Positions 10,281 to 21,704 of a stretch of 21,724 nt of DNA are shown piece after piece. Origin of the DNA: an uncultured Pseudomonadota bacterium (GTDB lineage Bacteria > Pseudomonadota > Gammaproteobacteria > Burkholderiales > SG8-39). Both the position numbers and the translations under genes were made by a program. Location: the NCBI GenBank assembly GCA_903909415.1, contig CAIVVS010000078.1:1-21724 (forward strand), in the 5' to 3' direction. Below the pieces are notes generated by a model. That model saw only the letters and a program-made list of their open reading frames with translations. It had not been told where the DNA came from and made no database searches. The stretch's first letter is position 1; every line of letters begins with the position of its first letter.

Positions 10281-10304
10281 TCCGTTTGGACCAGCGGCAA
10301 GGCG

Positions 10305-10339
10305 AAGGCCTGCCAGGTCAGGCAGGTGCTGCAGGCCTT
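10305..10339. promoter_or_regulatory. Inverted repeat upstream of hicB-like gene
   Basis: AAGGCCTGC (10305-10313) and GCAGGCCTT (10331-10339) are perfect 9-bp arms separated by 17 nt, with a smaller nested CCTGCC/GGCAGG pair. It lies 21 nt before the HicB-type start codon. HicB proteins bind an operator at their own promoter, so this is a candidate autoregulatory site. It could instead be a terminator-like hairpin for the preceding operon, but no T-tract follows. Confidence 0.4.
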
Positions 10340-10360
10340 GGACAAACTCGGAGGCAGGAC

Positions 10361-10684
10361 ATGAACCCCAAGCACTGCACCTATCGCGTGACCTGGTCGC
10401 CCGAGGACGGTGAGCACGTGGCGCTGTGCGCCGAGTTTCCCTCGCTGAGCTGGCTGGCGAAGACGCCGGAGTCGGCACTGCGTGGCATCCAGAAGGTGGT
10501 GGCCGGCGTGGCGGCCTACATGCAGGCCCGGCGCGAGCCGGTGCCGGAACCGCTGGCCGACCGCACCTACAGCGGCGAGTTCCGGGTGCGCATCCCGCCG
10601 CAACTGCACCGCCAGCTCGCGCTGACCGCCGCGGAGCAGGGCGTAAGCCTGAACCGGCTGGCGAGCGCGAAACTCGCTGCCTGA
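10361..10684 (+). CDS. HicB-family antitoxin, apparently without HicA
   Basis: A 107-residue protein with an N-terminal HicB fold (YRVTWSPEDGEHVALCAEFPSLSWLA, about 8-33) and a C-terminal ribbon-helix-helix/Arc-like DNA-binding part (YSGEFRVRIPPQLHRQLALT, then AEQGVSLNRLASAKL, about 70-105). HicB neutralises the HicA mRNA interferase and represses its own operon. The start is ATG 10361, behind GGAGG at 10350-10354. No intact HicA (about 60 residues with a conserved His) is found on either side. The preceding frame ends in QVRQVLQALDKLGGRT with its TGA overlapping this ATG, which weakly resembles the start of a HicA and might be a remnant. An orphan regulator role is also possible. Confidence 0.85.
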   Translation: MNPKHCTYRVTWSPEDGEHVALCAEFPSLSWLAKTPESALRGIQKVVAGVAAYMQARREPVPEPLADRTYSGEFRVRIPPQLHRQLALTAAEQGVSLNRLASAKLAA

Positions 10685-10908: not shown

Positions 10909-10932
10909 GCCATATCGGAGGCCTGATATGGC
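10909..10932. promoter_or_regulatory. Inverted repeat enclosing the ribosome binding site and start codon
   Basis: GCCATATC (10909-10916) and GATATGGC (10925-10932) are perfect 8-bp arms around an 8-nt centre that contains GGAGG (10917-10921). The ATG (10928-10930) lies in the right arm. In RNA this would put the start codon in a stem and the Shine-Dalgarno in the loop. In DNA it would be an operator just downstream of the promoter. Either way it suggests tight control of this gene. Confidence 0.55.
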
Positions 10933-12856
10933 AAAAATACTTTTCTTCGTGATGCTGGTGCTGCATGCCGGGCTGGCCCACGCCCAGCAGCGCAACCTCA
11001 ACGTCGGCGCCACCTCGGGTGGTACCCGCGTCGCGCTGGTGGTGGGCAATGACGCTTACACCCGCGTCCCGGCGCTGAGGAACGCCAAGTCCGATGCGCA
11101 GGCCATGGCCACGGCGCTGCGCGCCACCGGCTTCGACGTGATCCTGCGCACCGACCTGGATGACCGCAGCCTGCGCGGCGCGGTGCGCGAGTTCATCGGG
11201 CGGCTGTCCGGCGGCGGCGAGGCGGTGTTCTATTTCGCCGGCCACGGCGTGCAGCTGGGCGCGGCCAACTACCTGCTGCCGACCAACATCAACGCGGACA
11301 ACGAAGCGCAGGTGCGGGACGACGGCCTGCCACTGCAGCGCGTGCTGGACGACCTGACGGACAGCAAGGCGCGCTTCTCGGTGGCGATCATCGACGCCTG
11401 CCGCGACAACCCCTTCCCGCGCGTCGCCGGCCGCAGCATCGGCACGGCGCGCGGCCTGGCGCCCACCAGCCCTGCCACCGGGCAGATGGTGCTGTTCTCG
11501 GCCGGCACGGGCCAGAGCGCGCTGGACCGGCTCGGCCCTTCGGACCGTGACCCGAACGGCCTGTTCACCCGCGTGCTGCTCAAGCAGATCCAGCAGCCCG
11601 GCGTGCCGGTGGACCAGGTGCTGCGCAACGTGCGCGAGGAAGTGGTGTCGCTGGCCAAGGGCGTGGGGCATGAGCAGGTTCCTGCCCTGTACGACCAGAC
11701 CATAGGGCGCTTCTACTTCCGGCCCGGGACGGCGGTGGCGAGTGCCGCGCCGTCGTCGGTGGCGGTGCCGGTGGACCCGACGGCGAACGACCGCGCCTTC
11801 TGGGAATCGGTGAAGGACAGCCGCAACGCCGACGAGATCAGGGCCTACCTGGAGCAGTTCCCGAAGGGGCAGTTCGCCGCGCTGGCGCGTACGCGGCTGC
11901 GCGGGCTGGAGACACCGCCTCCCGTGGCCGCCCCGGTGGTACCCGCGCCCAGCATTGCCAGCGCCGCGCCCTCGTCGCTGGTGGCGGCGCCGACGCAGGC
12001 GGTGGTGGACCTGCAGCGGGTGGCGGCGGGCACGGTGTTCCGCGACTGCGCCGACTGCCCGGAGATGGTGGTGATCCCGCCGGGGCGTTTCACCATGGGG
12101 TCGCCGGATTCGGAACCCGGCCGTCGCCCCGAAGAAGGTCCGTTGCGTTCGATCAGCATCCCCTCGGCCTACGCGGTCGGCAAGTTCGAGGTGACGCGCG
12201 CGCAGTACGCGCGCTTCGCACGCGAAACCGGCCGCGCGGCGAGCGGCGGCTGCTTTGCCTGGACCGGCCAGAAGTACGAGGACAGCCCGCAGGCGAGCTG
12301 GAGCAACCCCGGCATCCCGCAGACCGAGAACGACCCGGTGGTGTGCGTGAGCTGGGAGGACGCCAAGGCCTTTGCGCAATGGCTGGGCGGCAAGACGGGC
12401 AAGAACTATCGGCTCCTGACCGAGGCGGAATGGGAGTACGCCGCGCGAGCGGGCACCACCGGGCGGCGCTACTTCGGGGAGAACGACGCGGACGCCTGCC
12501 GGTATGCCAATGTGGCCGACGCCAGCGCCAAGTCAAGCTACAACTTCGGCAACACGTTTGACTGCCGTGACAACTACGCGGCTACCGCTCCCGCAGGCAG
12601 CTTCCTGCCGAACGCCTTTGGTCTTTACGACATGCTGGGCAATGCTTGGGAGTGGACCGAGGATTGCTGGGCAGACAACTACACCCAAGCGCCGACCAAC
12701 GGCGCGGCCAGCAGCGCCGGCAACTGCGGCCGGCGCGTGCTGCGCGGCGGGTCGTGGGACGGCCATCCGCGCGTCCTGCGCGCTGCCTTCCGCGTCGGGG
12801 ACTCCGTTGGCGGCCGCGGTTCCGTCGTCGGTTTCCGGCTCGCGAGGACCAATTAA
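10928..12856 (+). CDS. Exported caspase-like/FGE-fold protein, probable DGR variable (target) protein
   Basis: A 642-residue multidomain protein. Residues 1-19 are a signal peptide ending AHA, without a lipobox. Residues about 33-265 are a caspase-like (peptidase C14) domain with H106 (YFAGHGVQ) and C158 (IIDACRDNPF) as the catalytic pair. Residues about 287-327 form one helical repeat (AYLEQFPKGQFAALARTRL), followed by a Pro/Ala linker. Residues about 367-642 are a formylglycine-generating-enzyme (FGE, C-type-lectin-fold) domain: MVVIPPGRFTMGSP, YRLLTEAEWEYAARAG, GLYDMLGNAWEWTEDCW and the end RRVLRGGSW...GFRLART. The two active-site Cys of true FGE align with G612 and L617, so it is not a sulfatase activator. 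The terminus matches DGR target proteins, and a bAvd gene follows. Start ATG 10928 has GGAGG 6 nt upstream. Likely role: a diversified ligand-binding domain gating a periplasmic caspase-like protease (inference). Confidence 0.85.
   Translation: MAKILFFVMLVLHAGLAHAQQRNLNVGATSGGTRVALVVGNDAYTRVPALRNAKSDAQAMATALRATGFDVILRTDLDDRSLRGAVREFIGRLSGGGEAVFYFAGHGVQLGAANYLLPTNINADNEAQVRDDGLPLQRVLDDLTDSKARFSVAIIDACRDNPFPRVAGRSIGTARGLAPTSPATGQMVLFSAGTGQSALDRLGPSDRDPNGLFTRVLLKQIQQPGVPVDQVLRNVREEVVSLAKGVGHEQVPALYDQTIGRFYFRPGTAVASAAPSSVAVPVDPTANDRAFWESVKDSRNADEIRAYLEQFPKGQFAALARTRLRGLETPPPVAAPVVPAPSIASAAPSSLVAAPTQAVVDLQRVAAGTVFRDCADCPEMVVIPPGRFTMGSPDSEPGRRPEEGPLRSISIPSAYAVGKFEVTRAQYARFARETGRAASGGCFAWTGQKYEDSPQASWSNPGIPQTENDPVVCVSWEDAKAFAQWLGGKTGKNYRLLTEAEWEYAARAGTTGRRYFGENDADACRYANVADASAKSSYNFGNTFDCRDNYAATAPAGSFLPNAFGLYDMLGNAWEWTEDCWADNYTQAPTNGAASSAGNCGRRVLRGGSWDGHPRVLRAAFRVGDSVGGRGSVVGFRLARTN
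12731..12850 (+). other. Probable DGR variable region (VR) with initiation-of-mutagenic-homing-like 3' end
   Basis: Codons 611-634 contain only 3 adenines in 72 nt. Against the recurrent DGR template pattern (SW-NNN-PR-N-LR..N.N.N...N.NNN.GFR), every position that is normally Asn is replaced here: D611, G612, H613, V616, F621, V623, D625, G629, G631, S632, V633. All eleven codons end in C or T (GAC, GGC, CAT, GTC, TTC, GTC, GAC, GGC, GGT, TCC, GTC), as expected if AAC/AAT codons of a template had their adenines changed. The conserved flanks (12731-12757 and 12830-12850) are GC-rich and unvaried. The upstream boundary is a guess. The matching template repeat was not found in this window. Confidence 0.7.
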
Positions 12857-12884
12857 TTCCTGTGTCTTCGCCTCCTTACCTCCT

Positions 12885-12907
12885 GCGGCCGTGCGCAGCA
12901 CGGCCGC
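12885..12907. promoter_or_regulatory. Strong GC hairpin downstream of the variable region
   Basis: GCGGCCGTGC (12885-12894), loop GCA, GCACGGCCGC (12898-12907): a perfect 10-bp stem, 28 nt after the stop codon of the caspase/FGE gene and before avd. In the Bordetella phage DGR, a GC-rich hairpin or cruciform a short distance after the VR promotes retrohoming, and this has the right place and shape. No T-run follows, so it is a poor intrinsic terminator. It could also simply separate the two genes. Confidence 0.55.
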
Positions 12908-12931
12908 GCGTTCAATGTTGGAGGGTTGAAC

Positions 12932-13291
12932 TTGGCTGATGCGGCACGCCAGACTGGCCCCGCCGTGGAGGCTATGTACCGTTTCCTGCTGTGGCTGATC
13001 CCGGCGGTCGAGAAGCTGCCGCGCAGCCACAAGTTCACGCTGGGCGAGCGCATCACGTCGGCGGCGCTGGATGTGCTGGAGCGCCTGGTCGAGGCCACCT
13101 ACTCGCGGCAGCGCGACGCCGCCCTGGACGCGGCCAACCTCGGGCTGGAAAAGCTTCGCTTCCTGTTCCGGCTGGCCGCGGACCTGAAACTGTTGGACCT
13201 GCGGCGCTACGAGTTCGCCGCACGCAGCCTGGACGAAGTGGGCCGGCTGGTGGGCGGATGGAAGAAGGCGCACCGTGCCGCGAAGGGCTGA
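12932..13291 (+). CDS. avd: bAvd-like DGR accessory variability determinant (four-helix bundle protein)
   Basis: A 119-residue, basic, all-helical protein. Residues about 29-42 carry LPRSHKFTLGERI, the hallmark of the bAvd/23S-intervening-sequence four-helix-bundle family, followed by helices DVLERLVEATYS, AANLGLEKLRFLFRLAADLKLL and YEFAARSLDEVGRLVGGWKKAHR. bAvd forms a pentamer that binds the DGR reverse transcriptase and RNA and is needed for mutagenic retrohoming. I chose TTG 12932, with GGAGG at 12920-12924 (7-nt spacing); TTG 12926 would sit directly on the ribosome site. It follows the variable protein as in canonical DGRs, but no template repeat or reverse transcriptase comes after it in this window. 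The related 23S rRNA-intron protein is less likely because no rRNA is nearby. Confidence 0.85.
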   Translation: MADAARQTGPAVEAMYRFLLWLIPAVEKLPRSHKFTLGERITSAALDVLERLVEATYSRQRDAALDAANLGLEKLRFLFRLAADLKLLDLRRYEFAARSLDEVGRLVGGWKKAHRAAKG

Positions 13292-13316
13292 AGGACTGTT
13301 CGGGCGGGTCGCCGGC

Positions 13317-13345
13317 TTGCACGGTGCGAAATGGCCATTTAGAAT
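13317..13345 (+). promoter_or_regulatory. Sigma70 promoter of the Phd/PIN toxin-antitoxin operon
   Basis: TTGCAC (13317-13322), exactly 17 nt, TAGAAT (13340-13345). The transcript start is predicted about 6-7 nt downstream, at or next to the antitoxin ATG (13352), so the mRNA is probably leaderless. No Shine-Dalgarno precedes the ATG, which agrees. Confidence 0.7.
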
Positions 13346-13361
13346 CTGAAAATGGACATTT
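13329..13361. promoter_or_regulatory. Twin palindromic operators for the antitoxin
   Basis: AAATGGCCATTT (13329-13340) is a perfect 12-bp palindrome. AAATGGACATTT (13350-13361) is a one-mismatch copy exactly 21 bp (two helical turns) downstream. They flank and touch the -10 element, and the second covers the start codon. This is the expected arrangement for cooperative autorepression by a Phd/YefM dimer pair. Confidence 0.7.
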
Positions 13362-13620: not shown

Positions 13621-14028
13621 TTGCAGGTCCTGCTGGATACCCATGTCTGGATCTGGTGGCTGTCCGCCACCAGCGGCTTGTCCGGGCGCGAGCGCGCCGC
13701 GCTGGACGCGCTCGCCGCGGACGGTGCCTTGCTGCTTTCACCCATCAGCCTGTGGGAAGCGCAGATGCTGCACGCCAAGGAGCGCCTCAGCTTGCCGCGT
13801 TCGCTGCGGTTTGCCGACTGGCTGGGCGAGGCCGCCGACGAATCCGTCATCTCGCTGGCACCGCTGGATGCCGGCGTGGTCATCGCGCTCGATGCCCTGC
13901 CTGCTTCCTTCCACGGGGACCCGGCGGACCGGTTGATCGTCGCCACCGCGCGCGCGCGTGGCTGTCCGCTGGCCACCCACGACACGGCTATACGCCGAAG
14001 CCGGGCCGTCCCGATATGGAAGCCCTGA
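13621..14028 (+). CDS. PIN-domain ribonuclease toxin (VapC family)
   Basis: A 135-residue PIN domain with the acidic metal-binding residues in place: D6 (LLDTHVWIWW), E46 (PISLWEAQM), D103 (GDPADRLIVATA) and D121 (ATHDTAI). VapC-type toxins cleave specific RNAs (tRNA or rRNA loops) with Mg2+ or Mn2+. TTG 13621 is the only start that keeps the first catalytic Asp at the family position, and GAGG at 13610-13613 is a suitable ribosome site. It pairs with the Phd-type antitoxin upstream. All key residues are present, so it looks active. It ends 6 nt before the convergent SDR gene. Confidence 0.92.
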   Translation: MQVLLDTHVWIWWLSATSGLSGRERAALDALAADGALLLSPISLWEAQMLHAKERLSLPRSLRFADWLGEAADESVISLAPLDAGVVIALDALPASFHGDPADRLIVATARARGCPLATHDTAIRRSRAVPIWKP

Positions 14029-15898: not shown

Positions 15899-17596
15899 GT
15901 GACCACAACGCTGGACTGCGACGTCCTGGTCATCGGCGCGGGCGGCGCCGGCATGTACGCGGCACTGGCCGCGGCGCGCAATGGCGCGGCCAACGTGATC
16001 CTGCTGGATCGAGGCCTGATCGGCCGCGCCGGCGCGACCGTGATGGCGCAGATGACGGTGGCGGTGGCGCTGGGCGAGGAATGCCCGGACAGCACCGACG
16101 CGCACCTGGCCGACACGCTGGCGGCAGGACGGGGCCTGTGCGACGAGTCGCTGGCGCGCCTGCTGGTGGAGGACGGACCGCTGCGCATCCGCGAGCTGGA
16201 ATCGTGGAAGGTGGGCTGGGCGCGCTCTGAAGACGGCTCGCACATCAAGCAGGTGCACGCCCCCGGCCACGACCGGCCGCGCTGCGTGTACGTGGACTTC
16301 CTCAACACCGGGCCGGCGGTGTCGCGCACCCTGCGCACCCGTCTGAACCCGGTGGATGCGGTGCGGCGCATCGGCGACATCGTGGTCACCGACATCGCGA
16401 TGAAGGATGGCGTCGCCACCGGCGCGATCGGCTTCCACCTGCGTACCGGCGAGACGGTGGTGTTTCGCGCCGGCGCGACGGTGATCGCCACCGGCGGGCT
16501 GACGCGGCTGTACGCGCGCAACAGCGCCTCGGTGAACATGGGCGGCGACGGCTATGCGCTGGCGCTGCGCGCCGGGGCCGAACTGATCGACATGGAGTTC
16601 GTGCAGTTCTTCCCGATCGGCCACCTCGCGCCGCGGCTGGTGGGCATGGACCCGATCATGTGGGACCCGTTCCGCTACAAGCTCGGCGGGCGGCTGCTCA
16701 ACAGCGAGGGCGAGGAGTTCAGCGAGCGCTACGGCCGCGAGAAGGACGGGCGCTACAACCTGACGCGCGACGTCGCGACCTACGCGATCTTCAAGGAAGT
16801 CGAGGCCGGGCGCGGCAGCCCGGCGGGCGGCGCCTACCTCAGCTTCCAGCACGTGCCTGAGGCGGAGCTGCGGCGCAACTTCGGCCCGGTGATCGACCGG
16901 CTGGCGAAGAACGGCATCGACCTCACCAAGCAGCCGATCGAGGTGGCGCCGATCGCGCATTACCACATGGGTGGCGTGAAGGTCGGCGCCGACATGGCCA
17001 CGCGCGTGCCGGGCCTGTACTGCTGCGGCGAGGCGGTCGGCGGGGCCAATGGCGCGAACCGGCTGTCGGGCAATGCGATCACCGAGGCGCTGGTGTTCGG
17101 CGAGGTGGCCGGGCGTTTCGCGGCGGGTCATGCCAAGTCGGCGGGCGCGGCGCGTGTCGCCGGCACGGCGGAGTCGCTGGCGATGCTGTCGGGCGCCGGG
17201 GCCAAACCTTCAACGAACCTCGCGGACATGGTGGCGCGCCTGCAGCGGCTGATGGCCGAGAAGGTCGGGCCGTTCCGCACCGAGGAGAAGCTGGTCGCGG
17301 CGCTGGCCGGGCTGGACGAACTGGACCGCGAGCTGGGCGCGATGCCGCCCGCGTCGGCCGGCGGCTACGACCTGTCGCGGCTGGACTGGTTCGACCTGCG
17401 CAACATGCTGCTGGTGGCGCGCTGCGTGGCGATGGCGGCGCAGACGCGGCGCGAGAGCCGCGGCGCCCAGCAACGCGAGGACCTGCCGGGGATGTTGCCA
17501 GAATGGCAATTGAATCAGGCACTTAGCCTTAAAAACGGCAAATTGGCGCTGGAGCGGCAGGCGGTGCCTGGCCAGGCCGGAAAGGTGGCGGCATGA
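15899..17596 (+). CDS. Succinate dehydrogenase/fumarate reductase-type flavoprotein subunit
   Basis: A 565-residue FAD protein. GAGGAG (13-18) is the FAD-binding loop. HYHMGG (354-359) and GEAVGGANGANRLSGNAITE (377-396, with R388) are the conserved SdhA/FrdA active-site segments, and RESRGAQQREDLP (518-530) is the family C-terminal motif with the usual His changed to Gln. The catalytic RGEGG is changed to RYKLGG (R259 kept), so the substrate is probably not fumarate or succinate. The family carries out hydride transfer at a C-C bond (dehydrogenation or ene reduction). The start is GTG 15899, behind AAGGA at 15887-15891. Its TGA overlaps the next ATG, which encodes a 2Fe-2S protein, its likely electron partner. 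No membrane anchor is present, so the enzyme is presumably soluble. Confidence 0.87.
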   Translation: MTTTLDCDVLVIGAGGAGMYAALAAARNGAANVILLDRGLIGRAGATVMAQMTVAVALGEECPDSTDAHLADTLAAGRGLCDESLARLLVEDGPLRIRELESWKVGWARSEDGSHIKQVHAPGHDRPRCVYVDFLNTGPAVSRTLRTRLNPVDAVRRIGDIVVTDIAMKDGVATGAIGFHLRTGETVVFRAGATVIATGGLTRLYARNSASVNMGGDGYALALRAGAELIDMEFVQFFPIGHLAPRLVGMDPIMWDPFRYKLGGRLLNSEGEEFSERYGREKDGRYNLTRDVATYAIFKEVEAGRGSPAGGAYLSFQHVPEAELRRNFGPVIDRLAKNGIDLTKQPIEVAPIAHYHMGGVKVGADMATRVPGLYCCGEAVGGANGANRLSGNAITEALVFGEVAGRFAAGHAKSAGAARVAGTAESLAMLSGAGAKPSTNLADMVARLQRLMAEKVGPFRTEEKLVAALAGLDELDRELGAMPPASAGGYDLSRLDWFDLRNMLLVARCVAMAAQTRRESRGAQQREDLPGMLPEWQLNQALSLKNGKLALERQAVPGQAGKVAA

Positions 17597-21274: not shown

Positions 21275-21360
21275 GGTGGGGTTCCCGAGCGGTCAAAGGG
21301 ATCAGACTGTAAATCTGACGGCTCCGGCCTTCGAAGGTTCGAATCCTTCCCCCACCACCA
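21275..21360 (+). tRNA. tRNA-Tyr (anticodon GTA)
   Basis: An 86-nt gene including encoded CCA. The acceptor stem GGTGGGG/CCCCACC pairs fully, the anticodon stem is TCAGA/TCTGA around loop CTGTAAA (GTA at 21309-21311), a long class II variable arm is present, and the T-arm contains GGTTCGAATCC. It is the first gene of the Tyr-Gly-Thr run. Confidence 0.96.
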
Positions 21361-21544
21361 TGAGCACCATGGGTGCGAGATTTGCGGGCGGAAAGCAGGG
21401 CAACGGGGCCGGACACGGCGCCGGGGCGCCAGGGACATGCAGTTACGGCGGCGCGCCATGTGGTGCGGGGCCGGGCAGGGGCGGAGCAGTAGCGGCGGGA
21501 GTGAAAGCAGGGCGGGCGGCAGGCCTGCAAAGTTGCGGGGCGAA

Positions 21545-21618
21545 GCGGGTGTAGCTCAATGGTAGAGCAGAAGCCTTCCAAGCTTATGACGAGGGTTCGA
21601 TTCCCTTCACCCGCTCCA
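21545..21618 (+). tRNA. tRNA-Gly (anticodon TCC)
   Basis: A 74-nt gene with encoded CCA. The acceptor stem is GCGGGTG/CACCCGC, the D-arm contains GCTCAATGGTAGAGC, the anticodon loop is CTTCCAA (TCC at 21577-21579) and the T-loop is GTTCGATTC. The 184 nt between it and tRNA-Tyr hold nothing I can recognise. Confidence 0.96.
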
Positions 21619-21629
21619 GACAGATTTCC

Positions 21630-21704
<75 letters not shown>

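Follow-up and report, generated by a model that had tools for sequence, protein, structure and literature searches.

Degenerate diversity-generating retroelements (DGRs) have already been published, and the locus studied here adds one with an unusually clear scar. It lies in a 21,724-nucleotide (nt) stretch of DNA from an uncultured Pseudomonadota bacterium (contig CAIVVS010000078.1 of assembly GCA_903909415.1, positions 1 to 21,724; hereafter the window) and consists of the gene for a caspase-FGE target, or variable, protein (VP), the accessory gene avd and the first codons of a reverse transcriptase (RT) gene, followed by a toxin-antitoxin (TA) module. According to parts of the published account of Thiohalocapsa PB-PSB1 (PMC10907252), that organism has degenerate DGR loci, some of them without an RT, whose variable repeats (VRs) fit the template of another locus perfectly at non-A sites. 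Its DGR 4 and DGR 5 resemble our locus in that the RT was replaced or lost and VR-bearing targets remain, and the targets are modular, some in the genome being of the FGE/CLec type; they differ in that arrays resembling miniature inverted-repeat transposable elements (MITE-like) replace the RT and the VRs match the template of DGR 2, whereas in the window the RT stub borders on a TA module and the VR has no known template. The DGR of Bordetella phage BPP-1, with the order mtd-avd-TR-brt (TR, template repeat), shares with our locus the Avd family, a VR at the 3' end of the target gene and a GC-rich hairpin after the VR, of a kind that retrohoming requires in BPP-1; unlike our locus it is intact and phage-borne, has Mtd as its target, retains both RT and TR, and closes its hairpin with a 4-nt GRNA loop where the window has a 3-nt GCA (PMC3240598, in part). 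Cyanobacterial orthocaspase-CLec proteins likewise join a caspase-like N-terminus to a diversified CLec C-terminus, with remote targets known; these proteins are mostly predicted to be cytosolic, whereas the window protein has a leader-like N-terminus and mainly proteobacterial relatives (PMC7517822, in part). In the available part of a 2019 survey (PMC6642488), the terms used for RT-less loci gave no match, and the global DGR survey is, by its own account in the part available, blind to remote targets (PMC8144416).

Our main finding is that the RT and the template of this locus were very probably lost in cis, as judged from the sequence directly behind avd. A frame that opens at GTG 13275 and, like the RT frame of many relatives, overlaps the avd stop reads VPRRAEGLFGRVAG, with LF at +5 after that stop, and corresponds to the first ~15 codons of an RT. 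The features around the break are as follows.

12926..13291, + strand: avd, encoding the bAvd accessory protein; intact open reading frame (ORF), TTG start as listed
13275..13318 (end approximate), + strand: DGR reverse transcriptase stub; GTG start overlapping avd, V/M-PRRAEGLFGRVAG; the frame closes at TGA 13347-13349
13319..13328, + strand: junction decamer GCACGGTGCG, which repeats 13269-13278 at the avd end exactly in inverted orientation
13329..13340, + strand: palindrome AAATGGCCATTT, conserved ahead of homologous antitoxin genes; whole in L201, partial in L202 and L203
13352..13594, + strand: Phd/YefM-like antitoxin; Pfam PF02604 at 28.0 bits, slightly under the cut-off of 29.8
13621..14028, + strand: PIN-domain (VapC-like) toxin; Pfam PF01850 at 58.7 bits

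Relatives of the locus came from an Avd-alignment scan of GTDB species genomes (the best 80 of 278 confirmed), and in them the RT start typically overlaps the avd end. Of the 42 loci shown, 18 have the RT motif LFxxIAxF 5 nt past the avd stop, and the others have it at 2 or 8 nt or elsewhere, or yield no motif. When the 36 nt behind the window's avd stop are set in register with the RT starts of the 18 relatives of equal spacing (L013, L038 and L052 among them have cut RTs themselves), their identity ranks first among the 43,376 positions of the two strands; when all 32 motif-bearing loci among L001-L053 are instead aligned on their LF codon, the place of the stub ranks 1 of 43,382. In successive 9-nt blocks the identity of the window to the relatives is 0.64, 0.48, 0.72 and 0.25, and among the relatives themselves it is 0.68, 0.48, 0.75 and 0.62, so that the homology breaks sharply at +27 after the avd stop, falling from 0.72 to 0.25 in the window where the relatives still hold 0.62. 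A test at the peptide level speaks less well for the stub: its 11-mer comes second of 37,772 peptides and its 14-mer falls outside the top six, the latter as expected if the RT homology is already over by that length. This test used 35 hand-picked RT N-termini, the distant ones and those lacking the motif having been dropped, and viral avd loci (distant, 25-36% identity) served as background only. The presence of the stub behind avd argues that an RT once stood here in cis and was then truncated. Remote target genes are known (PMC7517822, in part), and the VP-avd pair could on that precedent have been copied in as a remote cassette that never had an RT in cis; with the RT stub at its canonical overlap with avd this is extremely improbable, and a cassette that never had an RT was rejected on that ground.

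The rest of the machinery was sought across the window. No RT ORF was found in it by RT profile, and an A-specific repeat scan of its 21,724 bases for a template repeat gave 0 matches at two settings, the second of which, as a control, picked up candidate pairs in 57 of the 62 loci with an RT and a clear pair (at least 9 A-site mismatches and at most 1 other per 60 nt) in 47 of them. In a relaxed scan of the window, the best place other than the VR itself still had 32 non-A mismatches of 96. The initial annotation had read the locus as a DGR target with avd and without a working RT or template, which the RT profile and the repeat scans bear out. It had also reported neither RT nor template repeat in the 21.7 kb; this holds for the template and for a full RT, and fails for the RT stub at 13275-~13318, which was overlooked together with a hairpin at 12885-12907. 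Its two alternatives, an RT acting in trans or a lost RT, are narrowed by the stub to loss in cis, with the part that concerns freezing or service in trans left standing. Compared with a functional DGR, the locus thus holds a target protein with a C-terminal VR of DGR type, a hairpin downstream of it (by sequence and predicted fold) and an Avd accessory protein (NF033474 above its cut-off); of a DGR-type RT it has the N-terminal ~15 codons only, and a template repeat with A-site mismatches to the VR is absent within the 21,724-base window. It also has the RT remnant at the canonical place that marks a degenerate, RT-less DGR.

As the RT homology ends near codon 15 and the likely TA operator begins 10 nt further on, the RT appears to have been cut there, with the TA module standing at the cut. 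The operator is the palindrome AAATGGCCATTT, which lies 22-23 nt upstream of the antitoxin start in both the window and L201 and likely serves the TA module; L201, L202 and L203 are the sole toxin matches at E<=1e-25 in 399 genomes. Antitoxin homologues that precede PIN genes are 60-66% identical to that of the window. Pfam supports the TA operon that had earlier been placed after avd (PF02604, just under its cut-off, and PF01850), and the pair has the make-up of a type II module of the Phd/PIN (VapBC-like) kind, with the antitoxin below the Pfam cut-off and the operator assigned by conservation at three loci only. The 10 nt between the RT homology and the operator are filled by the right arm of a 10-nt inverted repeat (13269-13278 / 13319-13328). 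An inverted 10-nt copy within 60 nt occurs at only 5 of 21,634 window positions, and the repeat is possibly a scar of the rearrangement. We propose that the ancestral order would have been VP(VR)-hairpin-avd-RT-TR, possibly followed by a TA module, in a chromosomal DGR; that a rearrangement, either a deletion or a TA insertion with deletion, would have removed the segment that begins near RT codon 16 and extends to the end of the TR; and that the same event would have fused the RT stub to the TA operator. The locus comes from a single contig and carries the inverted repeat at the junction, as might also be seen if the true contig went on to an intact RT, with the TA flank misjoined at 13319-13328. 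However, the join leaves the TA operator complete, and a similar order, a truncated RT and then a TA pair, is found in the complete chromosome that holds L022, which makes such an assembly chimera very unlikely.

On the left of the break, the target gene and its accessory elements are whole.

10928..12856, + strand: target (variable) protein VP; hydrophobic leader (by eye), caspase domain, C-terminal FGE domain with the VR
12743..12850, + strand: variable repeat; variable codons 611-634 = 12758-12829, placed by column entropies and the templates of relatives
12885..12907, + strand: perfect hairpin with a 10-bp stem and GCA loop, 28 nt past the VP stop, like DGR target-site hairpins

Residues 33-258 of the VP match Peptidase_C14 (98.3 bits) and residues 377-640 match FGE-sulfatase (231.5 bits) in Pfam, the PADLOC 'caspase' model scores 41.3 bits, and a reading of the sequence alone gives catalytic-looking GHG and DACRD motifs behind an N-terminal leader. 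In an alignment of the window VP with its 119 best-listed homologues, from 3579 found, the entropy is 2.88-3.77 bits in columns 611-613, 615-616, 621, 623-629 and 631-634, and R606, G607, G608, W610, R618, R622, G635, F636 and R637 stay at 0-0.72 bits. The last ~35 residues therefore interleave anchors (RGGSW, R618, R622, GFR) with high-entropy columns, which is the layout of a DGR VR; the domains and the entropies together confirm the earlier claim that the caspase/FGE protein ends in this way. A few columns upstream of the VR vary as well, namely 586 (3.35 bits) and 601 (2.97 bits). Related DGR templates have Asn codons at most of the hypervariable VP sites, and the best-fitting of 44 equal-length templates, that of L010, is mismatched by the window VR at 26 of its 29 A sites and 9 of its 67 non-A sites, in what is a cross-species comparison. 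A subgroup of homologues (for example P0005-P0014) is fairly uniform across the VR, so diversification is not under way in every relative. Among the close, full-length homologues P0003-P0022 is a group, many of them with MORN repeats ahead of the caspase-FGE part, that has a rather uniform 'VR' and is perhaps a lineage without diversification. Just 5' of the VP gene, an ORF with a HicB domain (55.6 bits) lies at 10286-10684.

The hairpin behind the VP has a folding z of -3.7, none of 200 shuffles being as stable. Among relatives with a located VP stop (33 of 53 loci), 25 of the 33 have a hairpin within 120 nt downstream, with a 3-nt GNA loop in 15. The avd product reaches 110.9 bits against NCBIfam NF033474 DivGenRetAVD (cut-off 80), an equivalog that makes it a true Avd, and 72.2 bits against Pfam bAvd, in agreement with the bAvd gene noted earlier behind the caspase/FGE gene; its profile matches PDB 4dwl (Bbp7, E 9e-5) and 8ub7 (Avd, E 6e-4). 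With target, hairpin and Avd whole and the RT cut at codon ~16, the locus documents DGR decay clearly in its structure.

Decay of this kind is common: in 16 of the 77 avd loci compared among relatives, the RT is broken or missing. Among the 80 kept loci, an RT was recognised by motif in 62 and an in-frame, Asn-rich peptide of template type in 50. The state of the RT was judged by profile coverage in the 77 loci with at least 1.3 kb beyond avd (3 further loci lay too close to a contig end): 61 had at least 70% coverage, 11 were partial or frame-broken and 5 showed no trace. The earlier view that RT loss and service in trans are both unusual was too strong in the light of this count and of the degenerate and trans-diversified DGRs already published (PMC10907252). 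Two features of the survey count against reading too much into it: the 'broken' RTs of L020, L027 and L056 may be assembly frame errors, and assemblies of metagenome-derived genomes are incomplete; and a collection of loci based on avd leaves avd loss uncounted and avd retention outside its measure.

We then considered whether the cassette is a frozen relic or is still served from elsewhere. The most likely reading is of a locus without cis diversification, whose VR would be frozen, in this host, as one variant of an exported caspase-FGE sensor. A degenerate DGR that combines the cis loss with a frozen VR is in our view the probable state of the window, held with less confidence than the loss itself, and is favoured over service in trans, an explanation that we regard as rather unlikely; unless it is still served by machinery from another part of the genome, the cassette is probably a relic. 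In the trans explanation the cassette would have lost its own RT and TR and would still be diversified by an intact DGR at another site of the host genome, and VP, hairpin and avd would be intact because this diversification continues. That these three are all intact is a weight against the frozen relic, as an old relic would hardly keep them without selection, and so is an RT-truncated cassette in G005 that appears to be served in trans. RT-less loci diversified in trans are, moreover, described for Thiohalocapsa (PMC10907252).

G005 is the complete Binatia chromosome OX638375.1, which holds both the RT-truncated VP-avd locus L022 and the intact DGR L069. Of 90 non-A sites, 86 are shared by the L022 VR and the L069 template, and 18 of the 30 A sites differ between them; L069's own two targets have 14 and 2 non-A differences. 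At third positions, 4 of 39 differ between the L022 VR and the template, as against 66 of 180 between L022 and L069 in the adjoining FGE part (Fisher p 0.001). By this sequence comparison the L022 VR looks like one rewritten from a distance, to which constraint on the VR sequence could contribute, and the fit of VR and template in G005 means that service in trans is possible. L022 resembles our locus in its gene order, VP-avd-truncated RT-TA; unlike the window it has an intact DGR with a fitting template in its genome, and its TA pair is Xre/RES. The cassette at L022 9755-12238, with the Xre/RES pair behind it, and the DGR at L069 11426 lie ~176 kb apart on OX638375.1.

The other genomes with broken loci offer less to the trans explanation. 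A DGR RT search of 15 such genomes (that of L056 left out) found another match of at least 300 bits in only 3, G005, G006 and G009, and none in the remaining 12; the match in G006 and one of the two in G009 have internal stops. The G006 template misfits the VR of the broken locus (31 of 90 non-A sites mismatch), and G009 yielded no VR for comparison. Weaker RT matches, below 120 bits, occur elsewhere in G008, G010, G012 and G016, and the single-record chromosome G014, with L053, has no other DGR RT at E<=1e-10; the avd of L053 is truncated. Among the relatives there is thus a single likely case of service in trans, and most of the genomes lack any other strong machinery. An Avd kept for a role apart from retrohoming, such as binding of the VP mRNA or protein, would also fit the full-length avd of several RT-broken loci (L013, L022, L052); against such co-option of VP and Avd stand the bias of the avd-based collection and the truncated avd of L053, and we hold it to be very improbable. 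With the 16 of 77 loci and the Binatia pair, the choice between frozen and trans-served cassettes becomes a question answerable by read data.

A near relative of the window locus is present in metagenomes, with an Avd (P0121) 98% identical to that of the window. P0241, on a 4478-base contig like that of P0121 and presumably co-located with it, is an FGE-only VP with 72% identity to the last 203 residues of the window VP. Compared as proteins only, the two differ between R606 and R637 at 13 of 32 residues, all in hypervariable columns, with two Asn kept. P0241 consists of a leader and an FGE domain without the caspase domain, which was perhaps gained or lost as a unit between the two proteins.

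The TA module at the cut has counterparts behind other DGRs: chromosomal DGRs have TA genes immediately downstream more often than control windows do. In the 1.4 kb beyond the RT, TA domains were found in 8 of 42 RT-positive loci: HigB in L002, PIN in L009, MazE and PIN in L030, PIN_3 with an RHH-type partner in L031, HEPN with a nucleotidyltransferase in L071, and a Phd-like antitoxin with a PIN toxin, on the same strand as the DGR, in L015, L048 and L069. Control windows at 3.5-4.9 kb had none (0 of 42) and 63 further windows had one antitoxin, giving 8 of 42 against 1 of 105 (Fisher p 0.0002). The counts cover + strand ORFs, 114 near, 71 far and 120 in the further controls, so that more were scanned near than far. 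A rescan of 30 of the 114 ORFs confirmed their assignment to loci, which for L015, L048 and L069 rests on their ORFs and family counts; the second control set was scanned as a single batch, in which a TacA1 antitoxin and a GNAT protein count as one window, or as two if apart.

Such modules seldom stand at a break. Among 9 broken loci, with 10 of 44 downstream ORFs scanned, only L022 has a TA pair (Xre/RES), and the others are followed by metabolic genes, a caspase-FGE gene or ORFs without a match. This tells against TA insertion as the typical cause of RT breakage in these loci, and a TA pair at the break is not the rule. One could imagine that chromosomal DGRs regularly have TA modules as 3' partners, which persist longer than the DGRs themselves, so that after loss of RT and template the TA module would help to hold the VP-avd cassette in the chromosome as a ready target for an intact DGR in trans, the window and L022 being two stages of this cycle; we regard this as unlikely. 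If the TA excess behind DGRs holds in larger sets, it hints at how cassettes are retained. The neighbourhood of DGRs and TA genes is unreported in the titles and abstract openings listed (15 of 61 and 10 of 795 papers found) in literature searches for DGRs and toxin-antitoxin, which is no proof of its being unreported. The main text of PMC8144416 and PMC10907252 has no word beginning with 'toxin', and PMC8867640 uses 'toxin-antitoxin' once, about retrons.

As to the genomic setting of the window, 7 of 399 genomes from the order to which G018 belongs had an Avd match, with a best identity of 68%, so there is no close relative among those 399. A flanking protein of the window, encoded at 15899-17596, had a match at E<=1e-150 in only 1 of 399 genomes from the family of G018, with 64% identity. 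An exact 32-nt pattern had no match in viral contigs, and a megablast of the window against plasmids returned short pieces only, at most 3% of its length. At the right end of the window, tRNA-Tyr, tRNA-Gly and tRNA-Thr stand in a row at 21275-21704, which we take to suggest a chromosomal contig.

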